Of a DNA stretch of 64,000 bases, positions 17,523 to 61,917 are shown one piece after another. The position numbers and the translations under genes were made by a program. The notes under the pieces are model-generated. The model ran no database searches, was not told where the DNA came from, and saw nothing but the letters and a program-made list of their open reading frames with translations. Within the stretch, counting starts at the first letter, position 1. Each line of letters starts with the position of its first letter. The DNA is from Colwellia psychrerythraea 34H (GTDB taxonomy: Bacteria > Pseudomonadota > Gammaproteobacteria > Enterobacterales > Alteromonadaceae), in contig NC_003910.7 in NCBI RefSeq assembly GCF_000012325.1, positions 3,844,001-3,908,000 of the forward strand, read 5' to 3'.

Positions 17523-17543
17523 TTAAAACGGCATTTTCATCCC
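17523..17543 (-). repeat. 21-bp copy of the ybaB 3' end (possible attachment-site remnant)
   Basis: These 21 bases are identical, in the same orientation, to 61897-61917. There they form the last codons and stop of ybaB, encoding GMKMPF and stop on the minus strand. Sequence on both sides differs completely, so no further ybaB is present here. It lies 30 bp after the glk terminator, at a border next to decayed genes. Confidence 0.75.
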
Positions 17544-17695
17544 AAATGAAGGTACCTTGATTATTTGTTATTAACTATCATTAGATCTCGTTTTCATTGA
17601 CGTAAAAAGTATTATTGGTATTCAAATTTCATCATTATTAATCTGCAAATGCCCCCCTATTTGTCCCCTAAAAAAACGGCTCAAACTATTTAAAT

Positions 17696-18084
17696 CAAGT
17701 TGCTACTGGCGAAGAGAATAACTTAACGATTCGTATTTATGGTGAAAAATACCGCGTAGAATGGCAACAACAAGAACCTAAAAGCGTGATACTAAAATGG
17801 TTAAAGGAGCCAATACAAATACTAAGAACGGGTGGTAATCATACCTCATTACCACTAGCTAATATTCGCACGCCTATGGAACACCCTGAAGAATATTTAG
17901 ACGCTTCGCTGATATATAACATAACTCTTCACAAGCGGTAAGAGCCTATCAACAAGGTAAAGATGCGAGTCCTCATACATTCGATTATCCGGGTATAAAT
18001 GACGGCGTACACGGTATGGCAATAATTGAAGGGCTGGTTGAAAACCATCAGTCTGATGAAAAGTGGCTCACAATAAACAACTAA
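17696..18084 (+). pseudogene. Relic of a Gfo/Idh/MocA-family oxidoreductase (C-terminal part)
   Basis: In frame from about 17696 the translation reads GEENNLTIRIYGEKYRVEWQ, then KWLKEPIQILRTGGNH, NIRTPMEHPEEYLDA. After a frameshift near 17930 it continues SQAVRAYQQGKDASPHTFDY, PGINDGVHGMAIIEGLVENH to a normal stop at 18082-18084. This is the typical C-terminal third of a secondary-metabolism-type NAD(P)-dependent sugar oxidoreductase. The N-terminal Rossmann part is missing, so it cannot function. The base region 17544-17695 holds nothing I recognise. Confidence 0.8.
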
Positions 18085-18098
18085 GTGGAGTATATAAT

Positions 18099-18270
18099 AT
18101 GAAACAAATTCAAATTCCAAGTTGGGACCCTCTATGTATGGATCTCGCCAAGACAGCTAAACTAGTAGTCAGGATTATTGCGTTGAACTAACAGGTACCG
18201 CAGCAGAGTTTGATTTAACAATTACCTAACTTTCTACCCACTTATAAGGGCATTTTTTACCTTAAGTTAA
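18099..18270 (+). pseudogene. Relic of a sugar phosphate isomerase/epimerase
   Basis: From the ATG at 18099 the frame gives KQIQIPSWDPLCMDLAKTAK. A frameshift then leads to SSQDYCVELTGTAAEFDLTI followed by LSTHL, with TAA codons where Glu (ITELSTHL) and Gln (HLQG) are expected. This matches the N-terminal region of the isomerase that usually follows a Gfo/Idh/MocA gene, with an internal deletion after the first few residues. Only about 60 codons survive. From 18270 to 18334 nothing is recognised. Confidence 0.75.
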
Positions 18271-18334
18271 TGACATTTCCCTTTACGAGATAGAACTTAA
18301 GAGCTCTTATAGTAATGATTGTTATACATAAAAA

Positions 18335-19252
18335 TTATCTTTTCTCACCATTTTCAATGTCATTAGATTGAAAATTATTAATCTGTTCCTTACGCCAGCG
18401 ACCAGGGCTTAAACCATAGTCTTTCTTAAAACGGTGAGCAAAGCTTGCACTATCGCCATAGCCTACTGTGTCAGCTATTTGGTCTAAATTATATTGGGTA
18501 TAACGAAGTAAGTAGCAAGCATATTCTAAGCGAGTGTGAGTTAATAATTTGATTGGTGTCATTCCCATTTCTTTCTTACATAAACGAAAAAAATGCGGCT
18601 CAGACATATGCATTTCTGCAGCTAATTGCTTAACAGTCCAAGACAGTTGTAATTGCTTATTTACACGTCGTATTAGGGAGTGAAACTTTTGTTGTTGCTT
18701 TGTTAGTTGTTGCCCCATATTCAGTGTTTGCGCAATTTGATAAACTAAGACTTCTACTAAGCGCAATATAATATCTGACTGATAAATACTTTCACCGTGT
18801 TGGAATTCTCTAATAAGTGACATTGTTTGATACAGTCGTTCCGCATTTATACTGGAATAAACTGAAGGATGTAGTTGATGAACAAACTTATATTCAGAGC
18901 AATCATGCAATAACAACCAACACATTTCCCAATATTCACCCGAAAGTTCATACAAAAAAGGAGTTCCTGCTGGCAGTAAAACAATACTACCGGGTTTAAC
19001 TAAATATTCGTTATTACCAAGCTTGATCTTTCCCTCTCCTGCATGAGTAGAAATTAAGTAATGAACATGCCCGCTGTTATTTTCATTATTTAAACAAATA
19101 TTTCCTTTACCTGTTTTTCCAATTTTATACTCTGTTTGTAAATACGACATTCCTGCAAAGGCTATAAGACTAGCTGCTTGGCCTGGTAATTTATCAAAAT
19201 TAATGAAATCCTCTATACAATCAGGATGAATATTTAAAATATCTTGCCACAT
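18335..19252 (-). CDS. AraC-family transcriptional regulator
   Basis: Protein of 305 residues. An N-terminal cupin-like sensing domain (about 30-140, with GKIKLGNNEYLVKPGSIVLL) is followed by two helix-turn-helix motifs at the C-terminus. The first reads SWTVKQLAAEMHMSEPHFFR and the second NLDQIADTVGYGDSASFAHR, then FKKDYGLSPGRWR. It is a sugar-responsive type by family. The two relic genes just to its left (oxidoreductase and isomerase) may have been its targets; the divergent neighbour is a MATE transporter. Its present targets are unknown. Confidence 0.92.
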   Translation of the reverse strand: MWQDILNIHPDCIEDFINFDKLPGQAASLIAFAGMSYLQTEYKIGKTGKGNICLNNENNSGHVHYLISTHAGEGKIKLGNNEYLVKPGSIVLLPAGTPFLYELSGEYWEMCWLLLHDCSEYKFVHQLHPSVYSSINAERLYQTMSLIREFQHGESIYQSDIILRLVEVLVYQIAQTLNMGQQLTKQQQKFHSLIRRVNKQLQLSWTVKQLAAEMHMSEPHFFRLCKKEMGMTPIKLLTHTRLEYACYLLRYTQYNLDQIADTVGYGDSASFAHRFKKDYGLSPGRWRKEQINNFQSNDIENGEKR

Positions 19253-19369
19253 AAAATTACCAAAAGGATAGTTTTAAACATGATACATGACAATTTCACT
19301 TATGTTTATTTTATCACTATATTTTATAATTCTATGCAATATTCTAGTAAACTATAATGACTAAAACCA

Positions 19370-20734
19370 ATGAGTAATAATGAACCTTCATCATTAAAGC
19401 AAAGTATTAAATTAGCTTGGCCTATCTCTTTACAGAGCATATTGGTCACCATGCTAGGTATGAGCGACATTATGATGGTGGGCCACTTAGGTGATACTGC
19501 CGTCGCTTCTGTTGGGCTTGGTAACCGAATTCAATTTGTTTTTTTAATAATCTTAGCGGGACTTGCCTCTGGTGTTGGCACTTTATCTGCGCAGCACTTT
19601 GGTGCAGGGCAAATAGGTGTGATTAGACAAATAATTGTTAAAACGCTTGTCATTGCTGCCGGAATATTACTGCCTATATTACTGATTACCTTCTTATTCG
19701 CTGGCAATATAATGGGTATTGCCACAACAGATCCCAGCGTTATAAACACAGGGACCAGCTATTTGTGGTTAACAATGCCTAGTTTGATTTTTGTTGTCGT
19801 TGTGATGATATTTGAAAATGCCTTAAGGGGACTTGGACAAGTAATTTTCCCTATGTTTATTAGTATCATCGCCATTATTACTAATATTATTTTAAACTAT
19901 TGGTTAATCAAAGGTGGCTTAGGTATAGAGCCAATGGGTGTCATTGGGGCTGCTTTAGCCACACTGCTTGCTCGAGCACTTCATGCTTTATTAATACTTA
20001 CTTACTTAGCAAAAGTTAAGCACAGTATTTTTCCAACAACGTTCTTTTGTGCTGATTTTTATAACAAACAAGCGTGGACTAAATTACTTACCTTAGTTTG
20101 GCCAATGATGTTGAGCTTTGGCGTTTGGTCTTTAGGCACTTTTGTATATCAACTGATATATGGACGAATTGGTACACAAGAGCTTGCTGTCATGAGTCTA
20201 TTAGCCCCTATCGAAGGTTTACTCGTTTCGTTCTTTTTCGGCTTCGCTTCCGCGTGCGCAATTTTAGTTGGTCAGCGTTTAGGTAAAAATGAGTTTTCAA
20301 ATGCATGGTCTTTAGCCAAGAACTACGCTATCAGTGCGCCAATCATTACCTTTTTACTTGCGTTAATATTACTCCAATATCAATATTTGGTCTTTATGCC
20401 ATTCAGTAATTTATCATCAGAAACAATCACATTATCCCAAGAAATTTTGGTATTGATTTGCTTTGGAACCTGTTTAAAAGTATTCAACATGACTATTGCT
20501 ATGGGGATATTGCGTGCTGGAGGTGATAATAAGTATTGTATGTTCATAGATATATCGGGGATGTGGATAATAAGCATACCATTAACATTTATGGCAGCAT
20601 TCTACTTTATGTTACCCCTGTATTGGGTCGCTCTCATCGCTTACTCTGAGGAAATAATTAAAGCAGTTATGTTTATTTTCAGAATGAAAACTAGGCACTG
20701 GTTAAAAAACCTAACCGCTGAAAGTATGGCGTAG
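19370..20734 (+). CDS. MATE-family efflux transporter
   Basis: Protein of 454 residues with about 12 hydrophobic segments in two halves. Family stretches are SIKLAWPISLQSILVTMLGM, DIMMVGHLGDTAVASVGLGN, GVGTLSAQHFGAGQ and, in the second half, KLLTLVWPMMLSFGVWSLG. It exports small cationic or aromatic compounds with Na+ or H+ by family; the substrate is unknown. It is divergent from the AraC gene and has no obvious link to glucan use. The ATG at 19370 lies in a poor ribosome-site context, so a nearby start is possible. Confidence 0.92.
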   Translation: MSNNEPSSLKQSIKLAWPISLQSILVTMLGMSDIMMVGHLGDTAVASVGLGNRIQFVFLIILAGLASGVGTLSAQHFGAGQIGVIRQIIVKTLVIAAGILLPILLITFLFAGNIMGIATTDPSVINTGTSYLWLTMPSLIFVVVVMIFENALRGLGQVIFPMFISIIAIITNIILNYWLIKGGLGIEPMGVIGAALATLLARALHALLILTYLAKVKHSIFPTTFFCADFYNKQAWTKLLTLVWPMMLSFGVWSLGTFVYQLIYGRIGTQELAVMSLLAPIEGLLVSFFFGFASACAILVGQRLGKNEFSNAWSLAKNYAISAPIITFLLALILLQYQYLVFMPFSNLSSETITLSQEILVLICFGTCLKVFNMTIAMGILRAGGDNKYCMFIDISGMWIISIPLTFMAAFYFMLPLYWVALIAYSEEIIKAVMFIFRMKTRHWLKNLTAESMA

Positions 20735-20775
20735 TTGGCACTACGCTTAATTAACTTAACGCGGTTACTGTCCTT

Positions 20776-20801
20776 TACTATTAAAAACCTTTTTAATAGT
20801 A
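20776..20801. terminator. Bidirectional terminator between MATE and phosphatase genes
   Basis: A perfect 12-bp stem, TACTATTAAAAA with TTTTTAATAGTA, and a 2-base loop between two converging genes. T-rich arms serve both strands. Confidence 0.75.
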
Positions 20802-20802
20802 A

Positions 20803-21315
20803 TCAAAACTTATCTGCCGAGTTTTTCAACTGACTATTTAAATAGTTAATTTGCTTTTGAATTCTTAATGCTTTGGGTTTTATTAATTGTACTTCTTGTT
20901 TAATTTTATCTGCTGACCAGCCAAGTTGTAATAGTAATAAAGAAATAACAGTGCCTGTTCGTCCTGTCCCCCCCTTGCAATGTACAGCTACCACCCCTTT
21001 ATTCTTAATCTCATTCAGGATTCGATCTTTCTTCTTTTGCCACTCTTGATGAAACGCCTCTTGCGGGGCTTCATCATCAATAATGGGGAGTTGTAGCCAC
21101 TGGATCTTATATTTATGGCAAAGCAGTGGCAGCTTAATGGCATTATTTTCTAGCATTTCTTTATCAAACATTAGGGTAAGCAACATAGATACGCCCTGTT
21201 GCTTGAGTTGCAGTATTGACTGCTCAAGGTTAACAGCTTTAGTTCCGGGGCAAGGTGTAAATAATAGCTTTGCCCCATTTGACAGTGCTAAGGTTTCGAA
21301 GGGATGTATATTCAT
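20803..21315 (-). CDS. Dual-specificity/tyrosine phosphatase-like protein
   Basis: Protein of 170 residues with the cysteine-phosphatase loop HCKGGTGRTG: nucleophile Cys113, Arg119. A likely general acid lies in PIIDDEAPQ near residues 79-85. This organisation is like the CDKN3/kinase-associated phosphatase group found in bacteria as stand-alone cytoplasmic enzymes. No signal peptide or membrane segment is seen. It lies between MATE and GH30 with its own flanking hairpins, so it is probably expressed alone. The substrate is unknown. Confidence 0.85.
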   Translation of the reverse strand: MNIHPFETLALSNGAKLLFTPCPGTKAVNLEQSILQLKQQGVSMLLTLMFDKEMLENNAIKLPLLCHKYKIQWLQLPIIDDEAPQEAFHQEWQKKKDRILNEIKNKGVVAVHCKGGTGRTGTVISLLLLQLGWSADKIKQEVQLIKPKALRIQKQINYLNSQLKNSADKF

Positions 21316-21334
21316 TAAATTTTCTCACATTTAA

Positions 21335-21369
21335 TATATACAAGAGCATTTAGTATGCTCTTGTATATA
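21335..21369 (-). terminator. Long hairpin after the GH30 gene
   Basis: A perfect 15-bp stem, TATATACAAGAGCAT with ATGCTCTTGTATATA, and a 5-base loop, directly downstream of the GH30 stop and upstream of the phosphatase start. Only weak T runs follow on the minus strand, so it may be a terminator or an RNA-stabilising structure. Confidence 0.65.
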
Positions 21370-21374
21370 AGCAC

Positions 21375-23078
21375 TTATAATTGAGCTTGAATTGTTTGAA
21401 CAGAATTAGCAGGAATTGACACTTCTACAAATTGATCACCAATTTGTAGTGAAAAGTTAATAGCTGCTTTGGTTGTGTTTAACAATTGTGTACTAACTAA
21501 ATTGCTTTTACTCATGGCCGCACTTGCATGCAATGCATCACTATCTAGCCCAGCTAATTGAGTTTCTACTTGCAATGCTTTATCGCCAGGGCGGATCGTT
21601 CGACTAAACTGAGCCAGTACATGATAAATTGGCGTGTAATACACCTCTCCCGTTTCAGTATCTATCATAATCGGTGCACCACAGAAGTTTCCAACATGAT
21701 TAGGTCCACCATTACTATCGAGTACAATGTTCCAATCAATCCAGCCTTCAAGCCAGTGATCTAAACTCACAATAATGTTTCGGGCATAACGATGCACTGG
21801 TGTATAAATTGGGTGTTCTTCTGGCTTTGGTGCCCATGTCGCGGTATATGCCCAATCGGTCGCATTTTCATTCCACCAAAAGTTATCATTATTAAACCAG
21901 TTAGACTCTTTAAATCGGATGGGATCTAAAATACCTTCTGGTGCATCTTTACCTAAATCATCAATGGTGCCTTCTGTGTGAATAATCGAAAACTCGGGGA
22001 ATTTATTATGAACGCGGTCAAAGACTTCTTCGTTAACCTTATTTGTACTTTCATACCAATGAACCGCCGTACCATAAACATACTGAGCCGTTTCTTTATC
22101 CGCTAATATTTCATCTGTCCAATGCTCCATTTCATCACGATTTTGATCATAAATGAGTAATTTTACCTGCTCATGAGCACTTACTTTTAATTTTGGTCCC
22201 AAATGATCTTTAATAAAAGCACTTTGTGTTTTAGGCGTGAAATGCATACTTTCCCACTGACCACTATTACCATGAGGTTCATTTACCGGAGTTAGTCCCC
22301 AAATATCAATGCCTTCTTTTTTATAGGCATCAAGGTATTTAATAAGGTAATCAGCATACGTTGCTCTATATTGCTGCTTTAATTCCCCACCTGTTCCCTG
22401 ATGGTTATTTTTCGCTGTAGGTTTAATATAATAGTCTTCAATGTCTTTCATCCATGGTGGTGCTGTCCATGCTGATGCTACTATTCTTAAATCTTTATCA
22501 CTTTGTTTACTTTTAATTTCATAGGCTTGTTTGATCATTGGCAATAAATCGAATTGCTCATCTTTAATACCTGCATGGTCTTGCTGTTTAAAACCATCTT
22601 GATCAACAGCGATACTAAAAGACGAGAGTGCTACATCATCTTTAACTGGTGCATAAGAATACTTACCATCCACAGCAAAGTCTGTCGCGCCAATATGAGT
22701 TCGAGCAATGGAAAAATTAGCCCCTTTTTCACCATAAATATTTTCCATGACTTCTGCTCTTTTTTCTTTGCTTAAATGCGCAAGAACAAAAGCAGAAGAT
22801 TCGGTAAAAGAAGTACCAATACCCAATATGTTCTGTTTAATAATATCAGGTCTAATGGTAATCACTTTGCCTTGAGCTTTACCTTGTTGAAAGGTCAAGT
22901 TTGGCTGTGGTGAAACTTTAGCACCCGCCTCACTCGTTAACAGAATTTCACTTGTTGTTGATAAATGATAACTAATTTCTTTCGTCTTGTTATTCACTTG
23001 AGATCCTTGATCTTGAAACATACAGCCAGTCAACGTTATAGAAGATATGAGCCCGATGAGTATCGCTTTGTTTTTCAT
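21375..23078 (-). CDS. GH30 beta-glucanase/glucosidase lipoprotein
   Basis: Protein of 567 residues. The lipoprotein signal peptide ends in the lipobox LTGC (Cys19). The GH30 barrel is marked by GIGTSFTESSAFVLAHL and SIARTHIGATDFAV. VASAWTAPPWMKD, acid/base Glu267 in TPVNEPHG and nucleophile Glu369 in IIHTEG follow, with a C-terminal beta-domain ending in VSIPANSVQTIQAQL. GH30 members in laminarin loci often cut beta-1,6 glucosyl linkages, so removing laminarin side branches is the best guess. The lipobox is followed by M and F at +2/+3, so export to the outer membrane is possible. It is followed upstream by a CBM9-like gene on the same strand, 53 bp away. Confidence 0.93.
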   Translation of the reverse strand: MKNKAILIGLISSITLTGCMFQDQGSQVNNKTKEISYHLSTTSEILLTSEAGAKVSPQPNLTFQQGKAQGKVITIRPDIIKQNILGIGTSFTESSAFVLAHLSKEKRAEVMENIYGEKGANFSIARTHIGATDFAVDGKYSYAPVKDDVALSSFSIAVDQDGFKQQDHAGIKDEQFDLLPMIKQAYEIKSKQSDKDLRIVASAWTAPPWMKDIEDYYIKPTAKNNHQGTGGELKQQYRATYADYLIKYLDAYKKEGIDIWGLTPVNEPHGNSGQWESMHFTPKTQSAFIKDHLGPKLKVSAHEQVKLLIYDQNRDEMEHWTDEILADKETAQYVYGTAVHWYESTNKVNEEVFDRVHNKFPEFSIIHTEGTIDDLGKDAPEGILDPIRFKESNWFNNDNFWWNENATDWAYTATWAPKPEEHPIYTPVHRYARNIIVSLDHWLEGWIDWNIVLDSNGGPNHVGNFCGAPIMIDTETGEVYYTPIYHVLAQFSRTIRPGDKALQVETQLAGLDSDALHASAAMSKSNLVSTQLLNTTKAAINFSLQIGDQFVEVSIPANSVQTIQAQL

Positions 23079-23131
23079 GACTCACTTTCCACTATTTAAA
23101 GATTTATTAATGGGTAATTTAGTTAACCTAT

Positions 23132-23911
23132 CTACTTGGATAGAATTAACTTGCCAAACATGCCCGCATCTTTCCAACCACGGTCAGGCGATTTACCTGC
23201 GGCTGATTCAGAGCCAATAAAATTTTCTCTTAGTTCGCTGCCATCGTTATCGCAATAAGCAACCATTAAGCCCATGACTTTACCTGCAAATAACTCAATA
23301 GCTTTATTGTTATCGTCCTTTCCTTGTAGAACGTCCTGGTAATTATCTTGATAGATCTCAATGCCTAGCTCCCAGAACAGCTTGTTACCCTGCTGTAACC
23401 AACGGCTTTCAACATGGTGTGAATAACTTTGAGCAAGTTTATTTGTCCCTATATCTATCGCTTGATTGTCCAAAGACATATGGTAGGCAAAAGCATTATG
23501 GTTATACTGATGATCACCGCCAGAGAAATCTTCGTCTAAAAATATCTCTAACGTGTCATCATCCCAATACTGAGTTAATGGGTCACGATGGGTATCAATT
23601 AAAATATCATCCACAATTTCAGTCAAAATATATAACTTGGATTTGCTCCAAACAACTTTGTAGCGGCCTTGAAAGTCTTCTTTTGAAAACTCTGGACCTA
23701 ACCAACGTTGGTCTAAGTTTTGCCATTTAGCTGATTGCCATATACTTTCGTCAGCGATCCCATCAACTTTAATCGCTTTTCCTGCGTAAGGAGCAAAATA
23801 TTCTGTTCGTTCAGGAGCATGAGACTCTTTGGAATATGCACTGTGAGCCTGAAAAACAAACAACATAAAAAGTGTTGTTAAACTAACATTTAGAACTTTT
23901 ATTTTTGTCAT
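23132..23911 (-). CDS. Secreted CBM9-like carbohydrate-binding protein
   Basis: From the ATG at 23911 this gives about 259 residues: a signal peptide (NVSLTTLFMLFVFQAHSAYS), then a single DOMON/CBM9-like beta-sandwich. Marks are IKVDGIADESIWQSAKW, YKVVWSKSKLYILTEIVDD, DDDTLEIFLDED and WELGIEIY. The frame is open further upstream (24 more residues), but that start has no ribosome site and would bury the signal peptide, whereas AAGAGAG lies just before 23911. The protein has no catalytic domain; it probably binds sugar or glucan in the periplasm or at the surface. It lies just upstream of the GH30 gene and is probably co-transcribed with it. Confidence 0.85.
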   Translation of the reverse strand: MTKIKVLNVSLTTLFMLFVFQAHSAYSKESHAPERTEYFAPYAGKAIKVDGIADESIWQSAKWQNLDQRWLGPEFSKEDFQGRYKVVWSKSKLYILTEIVDDILIDTHRDPLTQYWDDDTLEIFLDEDFSGGDHQYNHNAFAYHMSLDNQAIDIGTNKLAQSYSHHVESRWLQQGNKLFWELGIEIYQDNYQDVLQGKDDNNKAIELFAGKVMGLMVAYCDNDGSELRENFIGSESAAGKSPDRGWKDAGMFGKLILSK

Positions 23912-24083
23912 TATTATTCTCTCTTTTAGTGGAAGTTCATCCCCAAGACAATCCCTGAAATTAACAACCTGATGATTCATCATCTAATGATGATTTCAAC
24001 AAGACAACTGTATTACGCTAAAGCGGATTAATGCTGCGGTAAGTTGGAAAGTATGCAGGTAGTTATGTGTATAGACATAAAAA

Positions 24084-24113
24084 AGCCCTACTGACCAAAA
24101 GGTAAGTAGGGCT
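24084..24113 (-). terminator. Rho-independent terminator after the giant GH16 gene
   Basis: Stem AGCCCTACT with AGTAGGGCT and, on the minus strand, a following run of six T. It ends 22 bp after the GH16 stop, separating it from the CBM9-like gene. Confidence 0.88.
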
Positions 24114-24135
24114 AGGAAGTTAATAAATTAGCTAT

Positions 24136-27100
24136 TTATTTTGAAATATTTAAATCAGTAATGTAAATTTTATTACCTACACCACCACCTTCACCAAATA
24201 TCGCTATTTGTGTAATTTTAGATAAGTTAAGTGGTATATCAGCCACATTGATGCTTACCTCTGTCCAGTTACTATTAACCGTAACCGGTACTTTGAATTC
24301 TGCACCATCAACAATAAAATCGATAAAATAAGCAGAGAAGGCACCTTGAGCAGCAATTTTGAAATTAATGGTGCTATATTTAGCCACATCTAATTTGTAC
24401 TCTTGCACACCTCCATAAGTATCTCCCATTAACGCAAGTACCGCGCCCCAACCTGCACCTTTTGTTAATTCAAAAGCATTTAAGCCATTGTAAACAACAT
24501 CAGATGTTAGCGTGGTGCCAGTTGACCATTCGCTAATAGTGGTATTGCCATTATGCGCTGAGTCATCTCCATCAAAGATCATATCTGAACTCTCGCCGCT
24601 AGATGAGAAGAATACAAATTTATCATCTGAGCTTTCTTTTGCTGGCGTAACTTTACCAGTGTCATAAAGCACCATATCGGTGATATAGATTTTTTGACTA
24701 GCAGAGCCGCCTGCATAAACCCCAAACACTGCCATTTGATTTACAGTTGATAAATTAACACCGTACTGTGCTAAATCTATATCAATGCTATTCCAATCAG
24801 CGGGATTTGCTAAGCTAAAGCTAACTTCTTGAGCAGTTTCATTTGCACCGACTTTAGAAACAATAGATAACGCATAACGCTCGAAAGTCCCTTGTGAAGC
24901 GACTTTAAACTTAATGTTAGTATAATTAGCCATATCAACATCATAGTTATCAACATTTACGCCATCAGAAATATCACCTTGTAGGGCAAGTACTGCACCC
25001 CAACCACCACCAGCGGTAAGTTGAATAGCATCTAAACCTGAATAGTTAATTTCGCTTATTGCCGTACCTGTGCTCCACTCACCAAAGATAATGTTGCCAG
25101 CAGCACTATTGTTGTCATCATCAACAATTAAGTCGCTGGTGATATCTGCATCGGATGAAATAAAGACAAAGTCATCATTCGTTTCACTATCAAAGGCAAT
25201 GGCTTCATTTTTAATAAGCGAGAAGTCAGTCACATTAATAGTTGAAACGCCTGTTTGGCCACCAATACCATAGACGGCAATCCAATCAATTGATGATAAG
25301 TTCAATGGGATATCAGCAGCATCAATTGAAATTGTTTGCCAAGTTGCAATACTTTGATCTAGAGGCAGGCTAATTTCTTTACTAACTCCGTTAGCTGATA
25401 TCGCCACTTTAAAGCCACCATCATAACCGCCACTAGTCGCTAGTGTTAATTCAACACGGTTGAATAAACTAAAGTCACCCAAAATACCGTTTTGGAAAGC
25501 TAATACAGTGCCCCAGTTACCTTGTTCTGGTGAGTTAGCACTAGAAGTAAGCTCCCACCCCATTAAGCCATCAAAAGTAACATCAGCTTGAATTACCGTG
25601 CCAGTGCTCCATTCACCAATAGTATCTGGGGTAAGGCTAACATCAGTGTCATCCGTAGAAGAAATAATAACAAACTCATCGTCAACTACTTGACCTCCAG
25701 TATCTCCACCACCAGTATTTCCGTCGGTATTAGCTTGAATAGAAACACTAACATCATCAATATAAACTGAACCTGCTTCAGCGCCTAAATCAAACAACAC
25801 CCGGCTGTTATCATCACCAAAACCTGCAATAGTGAACACATAGTTATAGGTTTGCCACTCCGTCGTTAATGCTACGGTTTCCGTAACATTTGTCCATGGG
25901 TCTGAATTAAGACCAAGACCGGCAATCATACTCCGCGCTATAGATGCTTTTGCTTTAAACGATAAAACATAAGTTTCACCGGGAATTAAAGTCATTATTT
26001 GACTTAAGTTAACATCCCATGGGTTACCTGCTACTGCAATATCCGCTTGATAGAAAGTATTATCACCTTCGGTATTAACAGCAACAGCGCCTATCCAACC
26101 TTCAGTGCCATTATCAAAAGAACCATTGCTTAGAATTTCTTCACCTGCAACTGGACCAGAATCTCCGTCACCTGTGTCTCCACCAGAGCCGCTATCGCCG
26201 CCAGTGTTTTCACCTTGCAAAATAGTGATATTATCTACTCTAAAGACAGCACCTTCACCTTGAGCCCAATCTGGAAAAATCATGATAACGTCAATACCGT
26301 TTAGCTCTAAACCAGCATTACTTAAATCGTTTAGTGATATTGCATAATGCTGCCATTCTGCGGTGGGTGTAGATATTTGAATAAGCGCTTCAGTCGTTGT
26401 ACCACCTTGTTCAACTTTCAAATTCCAGTTGGCATTGGCATTATTTGGTGGCGTCACCAATTTCATGTCAAATTCCAACCAACCGTTATTTAACATCGGT
26501 GAACCGTCATACGCTACTGGAATATCCGCTTGAGAGGTATTAAAACCAACGACAGCCGGTGCTGCTCCCATTGAAAATTCAACCACTTGGTCATGGTCGA
26601 CATCATCGGTAACAACAGCAAATGTTGTTTCTTCATTACTGCTCCATGCAGGCCAACTTTCATTATTAGCATTATCAAATACAACGAGATCAATTGCTTC
26701 ACCTGTTGAAGGTTTTATTGGTGTTGGTGCATCACCATCAACTAATGAACCACCCTCGCTAATAGGATCTAAATAACCATCACGAACACTTGCACAACCT
26801 TGACCAGTTATAGGGTCAACTGAACACTCATAAACGCGAACGTAATCAAACTCAAAAGCATTGTCAGCATTAAAGGCTGAGGCATCGATACCGCCATTAT
26901 TAACATTTTCAGACCAACTTCCCCCCACGGCAAAGTTTAATATCAAATGGAAGTCTTGGTTGAATGGCGAGTTATCCCAATGGAATTCATTCTCATAGTC
27001 AGCAAACCAACCACGGTGTAATAAACCATTAGCATCGCCGTCACTGTCAATATTCACTTGTGACCTTAATTGTGTTTGATATAAGTAACCATCGACATAC

Positions 27101-29931: not shown

Positions 29932-30151
29932 TTACCTCAATATTTTTGTTAGTGCATTCCAGCTTTATAATTGATAAATAGACATTCAACGTTATCGGAA
30001 TAATTTGAATGTTTTTGAACATGACCGTACTAATCGTATTTTTTCACAGTACTGGTTTTCTGTTCGCCTATTAAAATCAATCAAGTAAAGACAATAAATC
30101 CTGAAATATAGACGACAATTAATCATCTTATTAGGTGATTAATTAAACAAC

Positions 30152-30240: not shown

Positions 30241-30464
30241 GAAATTGATGACATCAATTAAAGGATACAGTGAGGCTCAAATTTCAAATATTCACAATTT
30301 ATGAAATAATTAACCGCAGTAATGATTACTTTTTATAAGGAGTAAGGTGAATATGGGTATGACAGTTTAAGGACAAGCGGTAAAAGCTAGATGCATAAGT
30401 TGAATTACCGGGTCATAATTCAATTTAATAACTGTCATCGATTGCGAAATATAGGGATATTCCG

Positions 30465-31292: not shown

Positions 31293-31296
31293 AAAC

Positions 31297-46494: not shown

Positions 46495-46496
46495 TA

Positions 46497-49591: not shown

Positions 49592-49604
49592 TTGTAATTC
49601 CTTA

Positions 49605-50612: not shown

Positions 50613-50621
50613 TTTATTTCT

Positions 50622-51353: not shown

Positions 51354-51377
51354 AATTTATCTCTTTTTTATTTGAAA

Positions 51378-51391
51378 TATTACGCATAAAC
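51378..51391. promoter_or_regulatory. Candidate operator before SapC (TTTATGCGTAA core)
   Basis: On the minus strand GTTTATGCGTAATA. Its 11-base core TTTATGCGTAA recurs upstream of the receptor at 54505-54518. It resembles a near-palindromic LacI-type site (GTTTAyGCGTAAAC) but differs from the TGTAAGCGCTTACA class. Confidence 0.45.
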
Positions 51392-51438
51392 AATTATCTA
51401 TATACATTAAAGCATAGACATATTTAGTTTTAATTGAT

Positions 51439-51465
51439 AAAAAACCGCCCAATGGCGGTTTTTTA
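51439..51465 (-). terminator. Rho-independent terminator between receptor and SapC
   Basis: AAAACCGCC with GGCGGTTTT, 4-base loop and T/A runs on both sides, 17 bp after the receptor stop. It would reduce read-through into the SapC-cupin-halogenase genes. Confidence 0.88.
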
Positions 51466-51481
51466 AATTATAAAGACGTCG

Positions 51482-54466: not shown

Positions 54467-54504
54467 ATTAGTTCCCCTTGATGCTATTTATTCAACACCT
54501 TATA

Positions 54505-54518
54505 ATTTATGCGTAAAC
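54505..54518. promoter_or_regulatory. Candidate operator before the second receptor
   Basis: ATTTATGCGTAAAC, about 40 bp upstream of the receptor start; its core TTTATGCGTAA is also found before SapC at 51378-51391. A partial form, GTTTACGC, occurs at about 54848-54855. No matching regulator gene is identified. Confidence 0.45.
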
Positions 54519-54960
54519 GAATGTGTTCTCTGAGCTGACACTATTTTTAATAAAATAATAGTCATTAATACAATAAATCGTACATATTGCCCAAATATGA
54601 TACTACTCTTTCAAAATAGAAAACCTATGCCTTTACGCTCAAACGCCCCCTTTTACAAGGTAAAGTGGACTAGTTAAAAAAAGGGCATTTACATCTATTA
54701 AGCCCCATATTTATCCCTGTCGTTAAATTTAAAAAGTCATTGATTATCTTTGGTAATACTTTTTAGGATCGTGCCAATGTTAGTACTATGGTGAATAATA
54801 TTGAGGTTAGATGGAATGTTTTCGCTGTAAACTTAGGGGGTATTAAGTTTACGCTTAAGCTTTTCAATACATTTTGAATGTATTATGGGGACAGAGTTTA
54901 TGAGTGTTTCAGTAGAGATAACACAGTGATTGTTCTATTGAACAAGTAGAAATGAATACA
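54519..54960. other. Intergenic region upstream of the second receptor
   Basis: No gene is visible. It holds a small hairpin (AATACATT with AATGTATT, 54866-54884) and a ten-residue open frame from 54900 which I do not consider a gene. The receptor promoter should lie here or just to the left. Confidence 0.5.
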
Positions 54961-55136
54961 TATACCCGTTACCATTCAAGATGCATGTTGCTCAAGCGCT
55001 TCTATGATGGGCTTAAAATAACTTTATACGTCGTTAAATAATCAAAGCATAGAATGACTATGCTTAAATTATCTTCCTTGCCTAAAGTCATTTTAATTCC
55101 CACTGAAATCCTGCACTTTGATTGGTAACGGGTATA
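54961..55136. mobile_element. MITE-like repeat, short form (176 bp)
   Basis: Terminal inverted repeats TATACCCGTTACCATTCAAG and TGATTGGTAACGGGTATA (about 25 bp with few mismatches). The interior from about 54988 matches the right part of 46138-46494. It lies 62 bp after the stop of a symporter gene, again at the 3' end of a GPH gene. Non-coding. Confidence 0.82.
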
Positions 55137-55198
55137 GTTAGTGTGATTGTTATAACTGCATACCCAAGTGACTTTGAGTATGCATTATATAAGAAGCT

Positions 55199-56713
55199 TT
55201 ACGATGAAGGATTTAATTCAACGTTCTGTATAGGTTCGTCATCATCGACGGTCATTTTTCCACGTCGAGCTTCTAGAGCTTCTCGCACTTCACGCGCTTT
55301 ATCTTCAGTTAATGGATAAGCCATTATCATCCAAATAGCGATTAACGAGGTTATTATCGGGATAATCACGTCGCATAAACGCATGAAGAAAATAGTGTCT
55401 GCTGACTGTTGGCCTGCTAATGCAACATCAAATCCTGTCGCATTGAGTAGAAAACCACCTGCAGCGAGTGCTACAGCCATTCCGAGTTTTACAACCCACC
55501 AATAAATTGAGCCAAACATTCCCTCTCGTCTTTGTTTAGTATTCAATTCATCAAGATCACATACATCTGCAACCATAGATCCCATTAAGGTGAACAATCC
55601 ACCTAGACCAAAAGCAATAAAAATTGAAGGGATTAACAACAACATCGGACTTTCTGGTGTATAGCAAACCCATTTAAGTGCATAACCAATAATAGAAACA
55701 CCTGTCGAGAAAAAGAAGGCATTACGTTTTCCCATTATGGTAGATAGTTTAGTGACAAGAAAAATAACACAAAATGTTGATATTGCTGACACCGTTCCAG
55801 CCCAGCCAGCAAATTCAGCACCTAATGATTGATCACCACCAAAAACATAATAAATAATGACGTAAGTTTGAAACGAAGAGACCAACATAAAACCGTTAAA
55901 TACTAGAAAGGTTGCAGCGCATAAATAAAGAAATGGCTTAAATTTAATGGTTGTTAAAAAGCCCTTGATAAAGTCCTTGAAGCCAGCTGGGAATTCTTCG
56001 TTAGCTTCATTTTTATCACTTGAGCTGACATTCAAACTTTCTTTGTTTGTTTTTTCTTCTTGATGTTTTGAACGTTCTTTCAAAAATATAGCGGGTAAAA
56101 TCCCAACACAGACAGTAAAAACGCCAATAATAATAGCTAACCACCCTGCTCCTTCAATCATATCTTCAAATAACATATCATTTTGCATAAACCATAGGAA
56201 CCAAGGAGCCACTAACCAAGCCATTTGTCCCATGAAATTTTGTACCGCCATGAGCCTAGTTCGTTCATGATAATCAGGCGTTAACTCATATCCCAAAGCT
56301 ACCCAAGGTGTTGCAAATACGGTATAAGCTAAATAAAAAATGATTGAACCAATCAAAAAGAACCAAAAATAAAAATTTTCACTTTGATCTCGGGGAAGTT
56401 GCCACAGTAAAGCAAAAATGACTGCAGCTGCTATAGCGCCAAAGAAAATATAAGGCCTGCGACGACCCCATTTTGATTTAGTGTGGTCAGAAATATAGCC
56501 CATTAAAGGATCTGTTATAGCATCAGTTAATCTAGGCAAGGCACCAATAAGACCTACCAAAACAGGGTTCATCCCTAAACCAAGATTCAAGACAATAAGC
56601 ATACCGCCAATCGCAGCACCCAATAAATTATTAACAAATGCCCCTAAGCCATATATGAATTTTTGAACAAACGGAATCTTATCTCTATCACTTGTTTCTA
56701 CAGTATGGGCCAT
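55199..56713 (-). CDS. GPH-family sugar:cation symporter
   Basis: Protein of 504 residues, GPH/MFS_2 family, with IPFVQKFIYGLGAFVNNLLG, DPLMGYISDHTKSKWGRRRPY and TPWVALGYELTPDYHERTRL. A charged loop of about 40 residues (around 215-255, rich in Glu, Lys and Asn) separates the two halves, and the C-terminus is a soluble tail (REALEARRGKMTVDDDE). It is the most divergent of the five GPH proteins here. It diverges from the GH3 pair at 57095-61141, so import followed by intracellular hydrolysis is likely. Confidence 0.93.
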   Translation of the reverse strand: MAHTVETSDRDKIPFVQKFIYGLGAFVNNLLGAAIGGMLIVLNLGLGMNPVLVGLIGALPRLTDAITDPLMGYISDHTKSKWGRRRPYIFFGAIAAAVIFALLWQLPRDQSENFYFWFFLIGSIIFYLAYTVFATPWVALGYELTPDYHERTRLMAVQNFMGQMAWLVAPWFLWFMQNDMLFEDMIEGAGWLAIIIGVFTVCVGILPAIFLKERSKHQEEKTNKESLNVSSSDKNEANEEFPAGFKDFIKGFLTTIKFKPFLYLCAATFLVFNGFMLVSSFQTYVIIYYVFGGDQSLGAEFAGWAGTVSAISTFCVIFLVTKLSTIMGKRNAFFFSTGVSIIGYALKWVCYTPESPMLLLIPSIFIAFGLGGLFTLMGSMVADVCDLDELNTKQRREGMFGSIYWWVVKLGMAVALAAGGFLLNATGFDVALAGQQSADTIFFMRLCDVIIPIITSLIAIWMIMAYPLTEDKAREVREALEARRGKMTVDDDEPIQNVELNPSS

Positions 56714-57094
56714 ATTTTTATTCCAATATTAATTTTTATGAGTGCTATGCTAAAATTACACCTTGTTCTCCGAGCATAATTGAACAAAAAACACATTATA
56801 TAGATAAGAAAAATACTCAATACTAAAACGATGAGATGACCTTCAAAAAACGGTGAAATGGTCAATAATGCTATTTAATACAAATATGAACACCTAGAAA
56901 CGTAACGCCACTATCCCTAAAAAATCTTTTTAAAGTCCAGATAATCTACTGATAAGTCCACCTTGTCGTATTTAACTTGTATCCTGAATTATTAGTAATA
57001 ATGTAGGTATATAGCTTCTCCTAACATACTTACATACGGAATAATATTTTCATCCGTAACAACGCAATCCAACAAATAAATTTAAGGGAAGTAA
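56714..57094. other. Divergent promoter region, symporter/GH3
   Basis: The 381 bp between the diverging genes are AT-rich and contain no copy of the TGTAAGCGCTTACA operator and no clear hairpin. Promoters for both genes are expected but could not be fixed. Confidence 0.5.
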
Positions 57095-59317
57095 ATGCTA
57101 TCAAAATCGTGTCAACAAGTTCATGAGTTAAATTTTTCGGATGTAGAATCTGAAGTAGTTACACTGCTATCGAGAATGACTATCGAAGAGAAAATTGGCC
57201 AAATGAGTCAACTTTCTGGAGATGGATGTATTGTGTCAAAAAACTTGCGCAAGGCGGTCATAGCTGGACATGTAGGTTCTATTCTTAATGAAGTGGACCT
57301 TGACACAATTAACGAGTTACAACGGATTGCTATACAAGAATCACGACTAGGCATACCATTATTAATTGGTCGAGATGTGATTCATGGCTTTAACACCATT
57401 TTTCCCATACCACTTGCTCAAGCCGCAACATGGTCGCCAAAAATTGTTGAACGGTGCGCTAAGATTGCTGCAATAGAGTCTTCAAATAGTGGTATAAACT
57501 GGACCTTTGCACCCATGATCGATATTGCTCGAGATCCTCGTTGGGGGAGAATTGCTGAAAGTCTAGGAGAAGACCCATATTTATGTAAGACCCTTGCAAA
57601 CTCAATGGTAAAAGGGTTTCAGGGTGACAGTTTATCAGACACAAATTCAATTGCTGCTTGTGCTAAACATTTTGCAGGCTACGGAGCAAGTGAAGGTGGA
57701 AAAGATTACAACACAACTAATATTCCAGAAAACGAGCTACGCAACGTTTATCTCCCCCCATTTAAAGCGATAGCCGAATCCGGAGTTGCCACATTTATGG
57801 CATCTTTCAGCGATTTAAATGGTGTACCAGTCACAGGAAATAGCTGGCTTTTAACGACTGTACTCCGCGACGAATGGAACTATTCTGGCCCTGTAGTCAG
57901 TGATTGGGAAGCCGTTCCACAGTTAGTCATACATGGATTTGCCTTCGATGATTATGACGCTGCAGGTAAAGCATGTACTGCGGGGATCGACATGGAAATG
58001 GCCAGTGATTGTTACTTGAAACACATGAAGCATTTAATGAATAATAACGTTATCTCCCTAGATAAAATTGACAGTGTTGTAAAACGAATACTCACACTGA
58101 AATTTAACTTAGGGCTTTTTGAATCTGCCATTACATCCCCAAATCAACCATCAAATAGTTTAAATACAGACCATCTAAGCATTGCTAAAGAAGCAGTAAT
58201 AAAAAGTTGTGTCTTGTTAAAAAATGATAATCAAATATTACCCATAGCTAAATCGACAATTAATACCCTTGCGGTAATAGGGCCTCTTGCAGATGATGGT
58301 TATGAACAAATGGGCACGTGGGCTTTTGATGGTAAAGAAAACCAAAGCCATACGTGTTTGAATGCATTAAAAGAAGTAGCCAGAAACGCATTTAATATAA
58401 ACTATGCTGTAGGGATGGAAACCACGCGTTGCAACCATCACGACGGTTTCGCTGAAGCGATTGATACAGCAATAAATGCAGATATAGCGTTGATGTTTTT
58501 AGGTGAAGAAGCTATTTTATCGGGAGAAGCTCATTGTCGGTCGAGCATCGATTTACCCGGTGCTCAGGAACAACTGATTAATGTAATCCACGCAACGGGG
58601 ACACCTATTATTTTGGTGATAATGGCTGGAAGGCCCATTACTTTGGAAAAAATCATTTCAAAAGTAGATGCCATTTTGTTTGCATGGCACCCAGGAACAA
58701 TGGCAGGTCCTGCTATCACTGATTTATTGTTTGGGGTAGAAAGTCCGTCAGGAAAATTACCGGTTACCTTTCCTCGAACGGTTGGTCAAATTCCACTTTA
58801 TTATGCACAAAAAAATTCTGGCAGACCCCCCATTGATGAAAAATTTATTAATATAGATAATATTAAAATGAGAGCGCCACAAACTTCCTTTGGTATGACT
58901 GCAACCTATTTAGATACTCATTTCTCTCCATTATTTCCTTTTGGCTTTGGCCTATCCTATAGTCAATTTTGTTATACAAAGATCAAATTAAATAATAAAG
59001 TGATTCCTATGGGGGGCGCTGTTGAAGTAAGTGCAACGATTAACAATGTTGGTAATTATAATGCAGAAGAGGTAGTTCAACTCTATATTAGAGATATTGT
59101 TGGTAATGTAACTCGCCCTATAAAAGAGCTTAAGGGTTTTCAACGAATCACTTTAGGAAAAGGTGAAAGCATGGTAGTCACATTTAAACTACACACTGAT
59201 GAACTTGCGTTTTATAACCAACAAATGGAATATAAACCCGAAGCCGGACTATTCCATGTTTGGATCGGCGGGGATTCAAGCACGACGCTAAAAACAGAAT
59301 TTGAAGTGACAGATTGA
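57095..59317 (+). CDS. GH3 beta-glucosidase with C-terminal FnIII-like domain, cytoplasmic
   Basis: Protein of 740 residues, BglX-like in layout. TIEEKIGQMSQL, LIGRDVIHGFNTIFPIPLAQ, DPRWGRIAESLGEDPY, KHFAGYGASEGGKDYNT, then nucleophile Asp270 in VVSDWEAV; second domain from about 370; and a fibronectin type III-like domain (about 645-735; VQLYIRDIVGNVTRPIKELK). Unlike typical BglX it has no signal peptide, so it acts in the cytoplasm. The next gene, another GH3, follows after 24 bp. Confidence 0.95.
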   Translation: MLSKSCQQVHELNFSDVESEVVTLLSRMTIEEKIGQMSQLSGDGCIVSKNLRKAVIAGHVGSILNEVDLDTINELQRIAIQESRLGIPLLIGRDVIHGFNTIFPIPLAQAATWSPKIVERCAKIAAIESSNSGINWTFAPMIDIARDPRWGRIAESLGEDPYLCKTLANSMVKGFQGDSLSDTNSIAACAKHFAGYGASEGGKDYNTTNIPENELRNVYLPPFKAIAESGVATFMASFSDLNGVPVTGNSWLLTTVLRDEWNYSGPVVSDWEAVPQLVIHGFAFDDYDAAGKACTAGIDMEMASDCYLKHMKHLMNNNVISLDKIDSVVKRILTLKFNLGLFESAITSPNQPSNSLNTDHLSIAKEAVIKSCVLLKNDNQILPIAKSTINTLAVIGPLADDGYEQMGTWAFDGKENQSHTCLNALKEVARNAFNINYAVGMETTRCNHHDGFAEAIDTAINADIALMFLGEEAILSGEAHCRSSIDLPGAQEQLINVIHATGTPIILVIMAGRPITLEKIISKVDAILFAWHPGTMAGPAITDLLFGVESPSGKLPVTFPRTVGQIPLYYAQKNSGRPPIDEKFINIDNIKMRAPQTSFGMTATYLDTHFSPLFPFGFGLSYSQFCYTKIKLNNKVIPMGGAVEVSATINNVGNYNAEEVVQLYIRDIVGNVTRPIKELKGFQRITLGKGESMVVTFKLHTDELAFYNQQMEYKPEAGLFHVWIGGDSSTTLKTEFEVTD

Positions 59318-59341
59318 GAAATTACTGGATATAAAAATAAT

Positions 59342-61141
59342 ATGCACTCATTACTTAATAACTTAGTGGTAAAAACTAAAGTGGATGAACTAATGTCAAA
59401 TATGACATTAGCACAAAAAATTGGACAAATGACACAAGCTGAACGGCAAAGCTGTACGCCCGCAGAAGCAAAAAAGTTTCATTTAGGTTCAGTTATGTGT
59501 GGTGCGGGCTCTACCCCTGGGGAAAACAAACTTAAAGATTGGTTAACAATGGCTGACAGCTATTGGCAAAGCTCATCAGTAAAAGATGCATGTCATCATG
59601 GCATACCCTTACTTTTCGGGGTAGATGCTATTCATGGTCATAATAACCTTTGTCAAGCCACTATTTTTCCTCATAATATCGGCTTAGGCGCTGCTAACGA
59701 TCCCGCACTGATTAAAGAAATAGCCATCATTACCCGTAAAGAAGTATTGGCCAGTGGCCTTGACTGGACCTTTGCACCAAATCTTGCGGTTGCAAAAAAC
59801 CAGCATTGGGGTCGGTTTTACGAAAGTTTTTCACAATCACCCGATATAACTAATAAATATGTCAATAACATTATTACGGGACTGCAAAATCAACTACACA
59901 CCGAAGGTATTCTCGCTTGTGCAAAACATTGGGTTGGCGACGGAGCAACGTCTTACGGTATTGATCAAGGTGATGCCAAAATTTCGTGGCAAGTGTTAAA
60001 TAAAACTCATATAAGTCCATACATCACAGCGATTAACTCGGGAGTGATGACGGTCATGGCATCGTTCAATAGCTGGAATGGTGACAAATGCCATGGCCAT
60101 AAGTTTCTACTTACTGATATTTTAAAAAAACAGCTTAAGTTCTCTGGTTTTGTCGTCTCCGACATGAACGGCATTGACTATCTTTCAGACGATTTCTACT
60201 TATCAATTGCACAAGGCGTAAATTCGGGCATTGATATGTTTTTGGTTTCAGAAAACTGGAAACAATTTATTCGATACTTAAGTAACCACGTAGAATTAGG
60301 GACAGTATCAATTTCAAGAGTTAATGACGCTGTACGTAGAATTCTTACAGTAAAAGTCGCAATGGGCTTACTTGAAGCCCCTAAACCAAGTAAACGAAAA
60401 TGGGCAAATGATAATAGCTTTGGCTCTATGGAGCACAGAGAAGTTGCACGTAAAGCCGTTAGAAAATCACTCGTTTTACTTAAAAACCATCAAAACACAC
60501 TACCTTTAGATAAAGCGGCACGTATTTTAGTAACAGGAAAAAATGCTAATAACATTGGTCATCAATGTGGTGGATTTACAATAGCTTGGCAAGGTGTTTC
60601 AGGAAATGATGAGTTTGAGCAAGCAACATCGATATGGCACGGTATTAAAAAAATTGCACCTAATGCGTTTTTAAGAGAACAAGTTGAACATGTAAATGCA
60701 AATGATCACGATGTTGCTATTGTAGTCATTGGTGAAACCCCCTACGCTGAAGGATTTGGTGATATTAGAAATGACGATAATCTTATTATAGAAGCAGGAT
60801 CACAAATAAATGGTCAAATTAATGTTTCAGAGCCTTATGGTAGCACGATAGAATTACAAAGCTTACACTCGGAAGATTATGCAACAATTAAAGAACTTAC
60901 TGATAAAGGATTACCTGTCGTTGTCATTTTAATATCGGGTAGAACACTAATTATTAATTCAGAACTTGAAGAGTCAGCAGCATTTGTTGTCGCTTGGTTG
61001 CCTGGTACTGAAGGACAAGGAATTAGTGATGTTATATTTGGAGATGTTAATTTTCAAGGTAAACTATCCTTTGATTGGCCTAAAAACACCGTAACAAGCT
61101 CTTTGCCACTATTCCCTCAAGGTTTTGGATTACATTATTAA
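59342..61141 (+). CDS. GH3 beta-glucosidase, cytoplasmic, ExoP/cellodextrinase-type
   Basis: Protein of 599 residues with both GH3 domains. NMTLAQKIGQMTQAERQSCT, LFGVDAIHGHNNLCQATIFP, FAPNLAVAKNQHWGRFYES, KHWVGDGATSYGIDQGD, then nucleophile Asp274 in FVVSDMNGID; the second domain ends at LFPQGFGLHY. There is no signal peptide and no FnIII domain, so it differs from the upstream GH3. Both form an operon (24-bp gap). It should hydrolyse short beta-gluco-oligosaccharides; the pair may have different linkage preference. Confidence 0.94.
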   Translation: MHSLLNNLVVKTKVDELMSNMTLAQKIGQMTQAERQSCTPAEAKKFHLGSVMCGAGSTPGENKLKDWLTMADSYWQSSSVKDACHHGIPLLFGVDAIHGHNNLCQATIFPHNIGLGAANDPALIKEIAIITRKEVLASGLDWTFAPNLAVAKNQHWGRFYESFSQSPDITNKYVNNIITGLQNQLHTEGILACAKHWVGDGATSYGIDQGDAKISWQVLNKTHISPYITAINSGVMTVMASFNSWNGDKCHGHKFLLTDILKKQLKFSGFVVSDMNGIDYLSDDFYLSIAQGVNSGIDMFLVSENWKQFIRYLSNHVELGTVSISRVNDAVRRILTVKVAMGLLEAPKPSKRKWANDNSFGSMEHREVARKAVRKSLVLLKNHQNTLPLDKAARILVTGKNANNIGHQCGGFTIAWQGVSGNDEFEQATSIWHGIKKIAPNAFLREQVEHVNANDHDVAIVVIGETPYAEGFGDIRNDDNLIIEAGSQINGQINVSEPYGSTIELQSLHSEDYATIKELTDKGLPVVVILISGRTLIINSELEESAAFVVAWLPGTEGQGISDVIFGDVNFQGKLSFDWPKNTVTSSLPLFPQGFGLHY

Positions 61142-61307
61142 AATCAAGTAAAAGATCGTTGTCAGAGACAACTTAATGCCAACCTCTAAAGCACCAATAA
61201 AATAAGCCAATAATCCCGATATTGTAAATTAATATTGTGGAGTATGTCACAAAGTACCACCAACCTGCTTAATACCTAAGGAAAACTGGACACTGGCAGT
61301 AAGAGTT

Positions 61308-61595
61308 ATGTCAGATCTTTTTGCTAAACGAATGGGGAGAGAGCTTATCTCTAAAGAGATAGGTAACATTATTTCTTATAATTACGTAAGAAATAGCTCT
61401 GCTATGCCTATTTCACCTTATTATCCCAGCGTACTCTCAAGTAGAATATTTCAAAAAATAAATGTACCAAAGAAATCAGCATTTCTTTTTATTCTTAATG
61501 CAAAATTTATTCATGTCAACTTGAAATCAAGCAAAGAGCTACTGTTCAGTGATGCTGAACAATATGAAATTATTATTTTGAGCCAAGTTCAATGA
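61308..61595 (+). CDS. Hypothetical small protein (95 residues)
   Basis: An open frame of 95 residues, beginning MSDLFAKRMGRELISKEIGN and ending EQYEIIILSQVQ, with AAGAG just before the ATG. I recognise no domain, signal peptide or membrane segment. It lies in the gap between the GH3 pair and ybaB, an area that looks like degraded sequence, so it may be a relic or chance frame rather than a gene. From 61142 to 61307 I see only a short GTTGTC/GACAAC stem (61158-61172). Confidence 0.35.
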   Translation: MSDLFAKRMGRELISKEIGNIISYNYVRNSSAMPISPYYPSVLSSRIFQKINVPKKSAFLFILNAKFIHVNLKSSKELLFSDAEQYEIIILSQVQ

Positions 61596-61625
61596 AAATG
61601 GCAGGAAACAATTTTGGCACAGTAA

Positions 61626-61736
61626 ATGGGGTATAAAGACAGAGGATTAATAAAAAAATATACGGGGGAATCGATTGACGATGACGAACCAGATTATATT
61701 AATCAGATAACTAATAAACTCGGCCAACTAAAGTAA
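61626..61736 (+). CDS. Possible tiny ORF or gene remnant (36 residues)
   Basis: ATG at 61626 to TAA at 61734-61736; the product starts GYKDRGLIKKYTGES and includes DDDEPDYINQITNKLG. The composition looks protein-like, but there is no good ribosome site and no recognised family. It may be the tail of a lost gene. Confidence 0.25.
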   Translation: MGYKDRGLIKKYTGESIDDDEPDYINQITNKLGQLK

Positions 61737-61763
61737 TTAGATTGTTACTACAGATTTTCCATC

Positions 61764-61796
61764 AAAAAAACTCAAGAACCTCTCGAGCTTTTTTAT
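61764..61796. terminator. Bidirectional terminator between hydrolase locus and ybaB
   Basis: CTCAAGA with TCTCGAG (one mismatch) flanked by seven A on one side and six T on the other, so it can serve both strands. It would end ybaB transcripts coming from the right. Confidence 0.75.
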
Positions 61797-61896
61797 TGGG
61801 TTAGAAAGAGCTTTTGAAATGAACTAAATATTGTCCCCTCTTCCACTTTTTAGCTTTAAACAACTATTAAACCACTGTTATATAATGGATTTATAT

Positions 61897-61917
61897 TTAA
61901 AACGGCATTTTCATCCC
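61897..61917 (-). repeat. 21-bp repeat at the ybaB 3' end
   Basis: Identical and in direct orientation to 17523-17543; it starts with the ybaB stop codon and runs into its last six codons. The two copies bound a segment of about 44.4 kb. Confidence 0.75.

Follow-up and report, generated by a model that had tools for sequence, protein, structure and literature searches.

The end of ybaB occurs twice in the 64,000-nucleotide stretch of Colwellia psychrerythraea 34H DNA that we analyzed (hereafter the window). The gene itself (61897..62223, minus strand; 108 aa, Pfam YbaB_DNA_bd) is unbroken, and the reverse complement of 61897..61917 reads GGG ATG AAA ATG CCG TTT TAA, its last six codons (GMKMPF) and stop. 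The same 21 bases, TTAAAACGGCATTTTCATCCC on the plus strand, recur at 17523..17543, so that a direct repeat of the 3' end of the gene stands at both ends of a 44-kb segment, the two copies being 44,374 bp apart and set in unrelated flanks. To the left of the distal copy lie the ybaB-glk spacer and terminator seen in congeners and then glk (16445..17437, plus strand), which directly follows ybaB in congeners without the insertion; to its right a stretch of decayed genes begins. A preliminary description of the window had reported these exact repeats, had judged a chance match unlikely and had placed the left copy between an intact glk operon and decayed genes. Direct reading of both copies and the end of glk at 17437 confirmed the layout. 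Allowing up to three mismatches, the 21-mer had two matches in the window and none in 100 dinucleotide shuffles, and the whole 5.37-Mb genome holds the same two matches and no other, so this is not a dispersed repeat. A scan of the window for direct pairs of at least 17 bases returned 15, including the ybaB-end 21-mer; the seven longer pairs fall within a large gene (24136..29931) or behind two MFS genes.

Most of the segment is a cargo block (18279..61141) whose genes were identified with Pfam, NCBIfam (GH149) and PDB 6hq6. It encodes a GH149 β-1,3-glucan phosphorylase (34642-38091; NCBIfam NF058639, 1774 bits; PDB 6hq6) together with GH30, CBM9, three GH16, two GH17 and three GH3 domains (Pfam), MatE, two MFS_2 and SapC proteins, a TonB receptor, an AraC regulator and a LytTR/histidine kinase pair, and a phosphatase, SDR, glyoxalase, deacetylase, tryptophan halogenase-like protein and cupin. 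With glucanase families, GH149, transporter and TonB receptor side by side, the gene set fits the use of β-1,3-glucan (laminarin), the substrate being a prediction from the genes. Between this block and the distal repeat copy lies a decayed end (17544..18278), which holds what is left of the C-terminus of a Gfo/Idh/MocA oxidoreductase (17684-17938, plus strand) and then of a xylose-isomerase-like gene. The former was found by a six-frame genome search, Pfam on two fragments giving nothing, and the sugar isomerase remains were seen by eye against L221.

Some parts of the cargo stand out. The genes at 40551-44390 (GH3a, a short GH16 and an SDR) have a GC content of 43-49% in the kilobases 41001-44000, compared to mostly 35-40% elsewhere. 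Nothing in stretches from six other congeners with a glucan locus matched them at >50% identity across >40% of their length; these genes are perhaps a later addition. Near-identical pieces, with exact repeats of 21-42 bp, follow two different MFS_2 genes (46137-46494 and 54969-55136) and occur in the near relative G292 as well. Outside the segment, repeated palindromes around TGTAAGCGCTTACA at 903, 1113, 1188 and 10874 lie near the left sugar genes and resemble a LacI-type operator.

We then compared the locus with 295 genomes of the family, locating ybaB by a pattern search and reading the places among the matches listed. In five genomes of the same genus (G222, G135, G207, G247 and G259), glk lies tail to tail with ybaB with one core copy at the site, and the stop-to-stop gap is 81-113 bp; joining the outer flanks of the window's insertion gives 85 bp. 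The joined ybaB and glk flanks align with all five congeners, including a terminator-like AAAAGCTCAAG...CTTGAGCTTTTT, indicating that the 44 kb are absent there exactly at the ybaB end. A further congener, G317, has the same glk-ybaB arrangement with its ybaB site empty, and G038 has another ORF between the two genes. At up to three mismatches, and among the matches listed, G135, G207, G247 and G259 each have one core match in the whole genome, while G222 has a second on another contig. L051 and L053 have extra four-mismatch core matches, which lie on the opposite strand.

The preliminary description had proposed searching relatives for ybaB followed directly by recR. This order exists in G191, G109 and G155, but the five congeners above have glk beside ybaB instead, and in the window's genome about 69 kb separate recR from ybaB. 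Because either recR or glk adjoins ybaB in congeners, the glk block (from recR to the left repeat copy) is separate from the 44-kb insertion. Synteny does not make the window's order the general one and so does not bear out the objection, named in the preliminary description, that the whole locus is ancestral in its present order. The preliminary description had also suggested that the 17.5 kb to the left might be a further, earlier insertion; a second insertion of this kind finds no support there, as the glk block lies beside ybaB in congeners that lack the 44 kb, and no third copy of the core exists genome-wide at up to three mismatches. The same genome-wide count, and a search from recR to the left copy that found none at up to six mismatches, led us to reject a tandem insertion marked by a third copy close to recR. 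That the glk block is itself an older element of the same kind was likewise rejected, no repeat framing it among the matches listed, at up to three mismatches, for G135, G207, G247, G259 and G222. Across the genus, the recR-ybaB spacer ranges from less than 150 bp (G109, G155, G191) to more than 40 kb (G207, G247), and glk and MFS genes sit beside ybaB in several genomes. In two draft genomes, G120 (L033:8118) and G092 (L038:8360), a copy of the ybaB end lies directly beside recR with ybaB on another contig, the arrangement expected if an element separates recR from ybaB; neither genome is complete, and there are two recR contigs in G120.

The insertion is common to the window and G292, which has two exact 21-mers 49.4 kb apart (among the matches listed), is 98% identical to the window's DNA over stretches of 33.6, 9.7 and 6.5 kb, and, like the window's genome, has recR some 25 kb past the left copy. 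Its giant GH16/CBM gene differs from that of the window (24136-29931) at 27694-29912, and the 5 kb of extra length in its element seems to stem from repeated domains. The GH30 gene, used as a marker for the glucan locus, occurs in 8 of 39 genus genomes. The closest copy outside G292 is that of G317 (GH30 89% identical), which sits elsewhere in its genome beside genes whose homologues are about 1.1 Mb away in the window's genome; the 15 kb beyond those neighbor genes had no match to the window's proteins. In G297, marker and ybaB share a contig but lie 463 kb apart. These two placements show that the glucan locus occupies different places in different species.

The preliminary description saw no integrase between the repeat copies and proposed looking nearby for a site-specific recombinase. 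Pfam searches of the 26 proteins of the element likewise found no intact one, but a decayed remnant is present. In G228, a 442-aa tyrosine recombinase (Pfam Phage_integrase) ends 62 bp behind the ybaB stop with its C-terminus towards ybaB. With this protein as the query, tblastn matched the window at 61596-61727 with 43% identity over 44 residues and one internal stop (E 9e-5). The remnant (61596..61737, plus strand) lies just inside the ybaB-side repeat copy and points at ybaB, the same place and orientation that the G228 integrase has relative to its ybaB. An HMM built from 13 integrase C-termini recovered it at E 4.7e-9 in a six-frame search of 124 kb, a result repeated in an overlapping chunk; the next place in the 124 kb scored E 3.9 and the best in reversed sequence 12. 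Of eight ybaB-side integrases compared with a 697-bp target around the relic, a small target, five matched at E <1e-6, and L069, L073 and L075 had no match to it. Both integrase copies of G080, which are not beside ybaB, also matched the relic, as did the more distant integrase L077 (2.6e-5). Relatives have near-full-length integrase genes beside the junction where the window has a decayed C-terminus, whose 44 residues are too few to be placed on a tree.

To see how closely such recombinases are tied to ybaB, we used the G228 integrase as a query against the 295 family genomes and obtained 19 matches in 18 genomes. Eight of the ten matches with at least 42% identity lie beside ybaB with their C-terminus towards its 3' end (G228, G139, G206, G115, G161, G231 and fragments in G120 and G049), the other two both being in G080. 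None of the nine weaker matches (<42%) has ybaB within a flank of about 1.5 kb. In named genomes, 15 of 80 integrase loci have ybaB, as judged with the window's YbaB as the query at E 1e-6, a test that may miss the ybaB of far relatives and that we also applied to viral-collection loci. It lies beside 12 of the 16 near-full-length matches of at least 39% identity, which point at its 3' end, and beside the fragments L140, L179 and L186. The near-full-length matches that lack it are L126, L128 (with 398 bp of room behind the match), L133 and L138, and the short matches L198, L199, L201 and L202 are also without ybaB. Where ybaB is present, the gap between it and the integrase is 66-190 bp in 12 of 15 loci and 1.1-2.7 kb in L134, L135 and L139. 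Among nine viral-collection loci, L204 reaches into ybaB, and the remaining eight stop 39-60 bp beyond the match, too short to tell.

A tree built from 50 of the 89 loci (80 named and nine from the viral collection) placed 13 ybaB-associated rows in a single clade of 16 (support 100/98). The presence or absence of ybaB changed three times on this tree, compared to a mean of 11.7 for shuffled labels, and none of 500 shuffles was as low. Clade members L126 and L133, and L138 in the sister group, are without ybaB in the DNA examined, and so the tie between the family and ybaB is not absolute. The 3' end of ybaB appears to be the site used by a family of tyrosine recombinases in the Alteromonadales.

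Other elements at this site resemble the one in the window in their ends. We inspected 13 stretches and found a far-side copy of the local ybaB end in eight (G228, G139, G115, G049, G268, G278, the window's own genome G000, and G292); five of these stretches (G228, G268, G278, G000 and G292) had been picked for two known copies, so that 8 of 13 is not an unbiased rate. The remaining five (G206, G231, G161, G120 and G195) had no second copy within the DNA examined. Among the 16 ybaB loci of the named and viral scan, each about 10 kb or less, one exact copy was found, in L132 (10.3 kb away), and the other 15 had none. Five integrase-bearing elements therefore have a second copy of the ybaB end 10-23 kb off: those of G228 (12.4 kb), G139 (12.6 kb), G115 (22.5 kb), G049 (12.3 kb), whose integrase is a fragment, and L132. 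Their cargo varies. G228 carries a KAP NTPase and G049 a type I restriction system with AbiE, and G115 carries a second sugar locus: a TonB receptor, MFS transporter, DeoR regulator, GatZ/KbaZ-like aldolase subunit, ROK kinase and amidohydrolase. The G115 integrase is an open frame of 427 aa; the search match, a longer stretch, counted two stops.

Two inserts at ybaB have a far copy but no visible integrase: 2.8 kb in G268 (L031:7862-10728) and 8.0 kb in G278 (L032:6777-14834). Their far ends have TCATTT before the core, in common with the window's element, and both may be non-autonomous elements of the same kind. The ybaB-adjoining copy in G278 encodes GMKMPF, and the far copy, beside recR, encodes GFKMPF; this one case suggests that integration may swap in the element's own ybaB end.

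Taken together, the repeat, the precise insertion at a site that is empty in congeners, the relic and the tie of its family to ybaB lead us to conclude that the 44-kb segment is very probably a former integrative element, or genomic island, of the ybaB-specific tyrosine recombinase family, now fixed in the chromosome. The preliminary description had taken the repeat as a hallmark of such elements, and its reading gains from the empty site, from an integrase relic at the position typical of the family and from elements at the same site that have integrases and repeats of their own. On this view, a matching core carried by the element would have recombined site-specifically with the last ~21 bp of the chromosomal ybaB, which makes the 21-bp core the likely crossover site. 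The element would have brought its own ybaB 3' end, keeping the gene whole and leaving the second copy on the far side beside glk. The enzyme that made the insertion was presumably a tyrosine recombinase of the ybaB-3'-end family, of which the C-terminal relic alone remains. With the integrase reduced to this relic, excision and a circular form are not expected, and we infer that the element is now immobile. The glucan locus was probably already aboard, and the cargo may have arrived in one piece.

The alternative that fares best concerns this last point. A small element could have inserted at ybaB first and, as it decayed, have been joined by the glucan locus through recombination or nested insertion, a history that we consider possible though less likely. 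The mosaic look of the cargo is in keeping with it, since the 40551-44390 genes, with their high GC, have no close match in the stretches from the six other glucan-locus congeners. So is the comparison with G317, in which the long match to the glucan locus starts only at 18279 and leaves a separate decayed end, the 735 bp next to the left copy having no long match in 40 kb of G317; inserts without a visible integrase also occur at ybaB (G268, G278). However, the decayed end itself contains remains of sugar catabolism, and the family already includes an integrase-bearing element with a sugar locus, that of G115.

A second alternative is that the 44 kb were ancestral and were precisely excised in the congeners with empty sites. 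Excision and absence give the same sequence, and gain in the window's lineage and precise loss elsewhere leave an identical empty site, so sequence alone does not settle between them, but the spread of the glucan locus favors gain. The GH30 marker, in its 8 of 39 genomes, was seen at ybaB in G000 and G292 alone; in G317 it lies elsewhere with the ybaB site empty, and in G297 it is far from ybaB. G235, G295 and G310 have the marker and ybaB on separate contigs, with recR beside ybaB in G295, and in the GH30-bearing G311 ybaB was not found. We regard ancestral presence as improbable. That homologous or illegitimate recombination duplicated the ybaB end by chance, with no site-specific recombinase involved, would agree with the lack of an intact integrase among the 26 element proteins, but the insertion is exact, at the site of a whole recombinase clade, and retains a relic of such an enzyme, making this reading very improbable indeed. 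Other classes of element were rejected on the same 26 proteins: an integrative and conjugative element, as no conjugation or relaxase Pfam domain was found; a prophage, as there was no phage structural Pfam domain and PHROGs searches of two of the proteins gave no match; and a Tn7-like transposon, as the repeat is 21 bp and no transposase domain was found. Tn7-like transposons encode Tns proteins and make a 5-bp target duplication.

The former integrative element may also be one instance of something broader. The ybaB 3' end could be a general docking site used by a family of Alteromonadales recombinases (in Colwellia, Thalassotalea, Pseudoalteromonas, Paraglaciecola, Salinimonas, Shewanella and Psychromonas), with elements that bring their own ybaB ends and shuttle entire polysaccharide-use loci as well as defense genes, the laminarin locus having come as such a unit and been frozen by decay of its integrase; we give this proposal about an even chance. 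Laminarin is a main storage glucan of algae, and to our knowledge the gain and loss of laminarin genes in marine gammaproteobacteria has mostly been inferred from patchy gene distribution. In the window, defined attachment copies enclose an entire β-1,3-glucan locus, together with what is left of a recombinase whose relatives are testable. A second ybaB 3' end offers a simple marker for finding such islands, and related marine bacteria have other gene islands at the same spot.

Islands inserted by tyrosine recombinases at the ends of conserved genes are well known, among them the prfC, guaA and dusA types. The window's element shares with these its precise insertion, a repeat that equals the gene end, the restored end, an integrase (here a decayed remnant) beside the junction and variable cargo. 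The yicC island is another genomic island at a conserved-gene end (PMC8978831). Unlike islands of the prfC, guaA, dusA and yicC types, the element described here targets ybaB, has a decayed integrase and carries a β-1,3-glucan locus. In the full-text literature searched, which includes few subscription journals, the sole parallel met among the papers listed for ybaB as an integration site was in streptococcal prophages. Group B Streptococcus prophages with the integrase GBSInt8 integrate at a gene of the YbaB/EbfC family (PMC7487436, PMC12046356), with the listed attachment sequence TTTTGCATATTCATCATA (PMC7487436). The prophages have the YbaB/EbfC-family target in common with the window's element and differ in that TTTTGCATATTCATCATA does not resemble its core, in their phage cargo and in belonging to another phylum. 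The kind of element is well known, while the ybaB site, its recombinase family and the glucan cargo were not met in the literature text searched.

In gut Bacteroidetes, polysaccharide utilization loci are carried by integrative elements. A sugar locus as cargo is common to those elements and to ours, which differs in its gammaproteobacterial locus, in its target and in that no conjugation domain was recognized. The cargo itself has the same GH16/GH17/GH149/GH3/GH30 set as known GH149 β-1,3-glucan (laminarin) loci (NF058639, 6hq6), and differs from them in being framed by attachment repeats.
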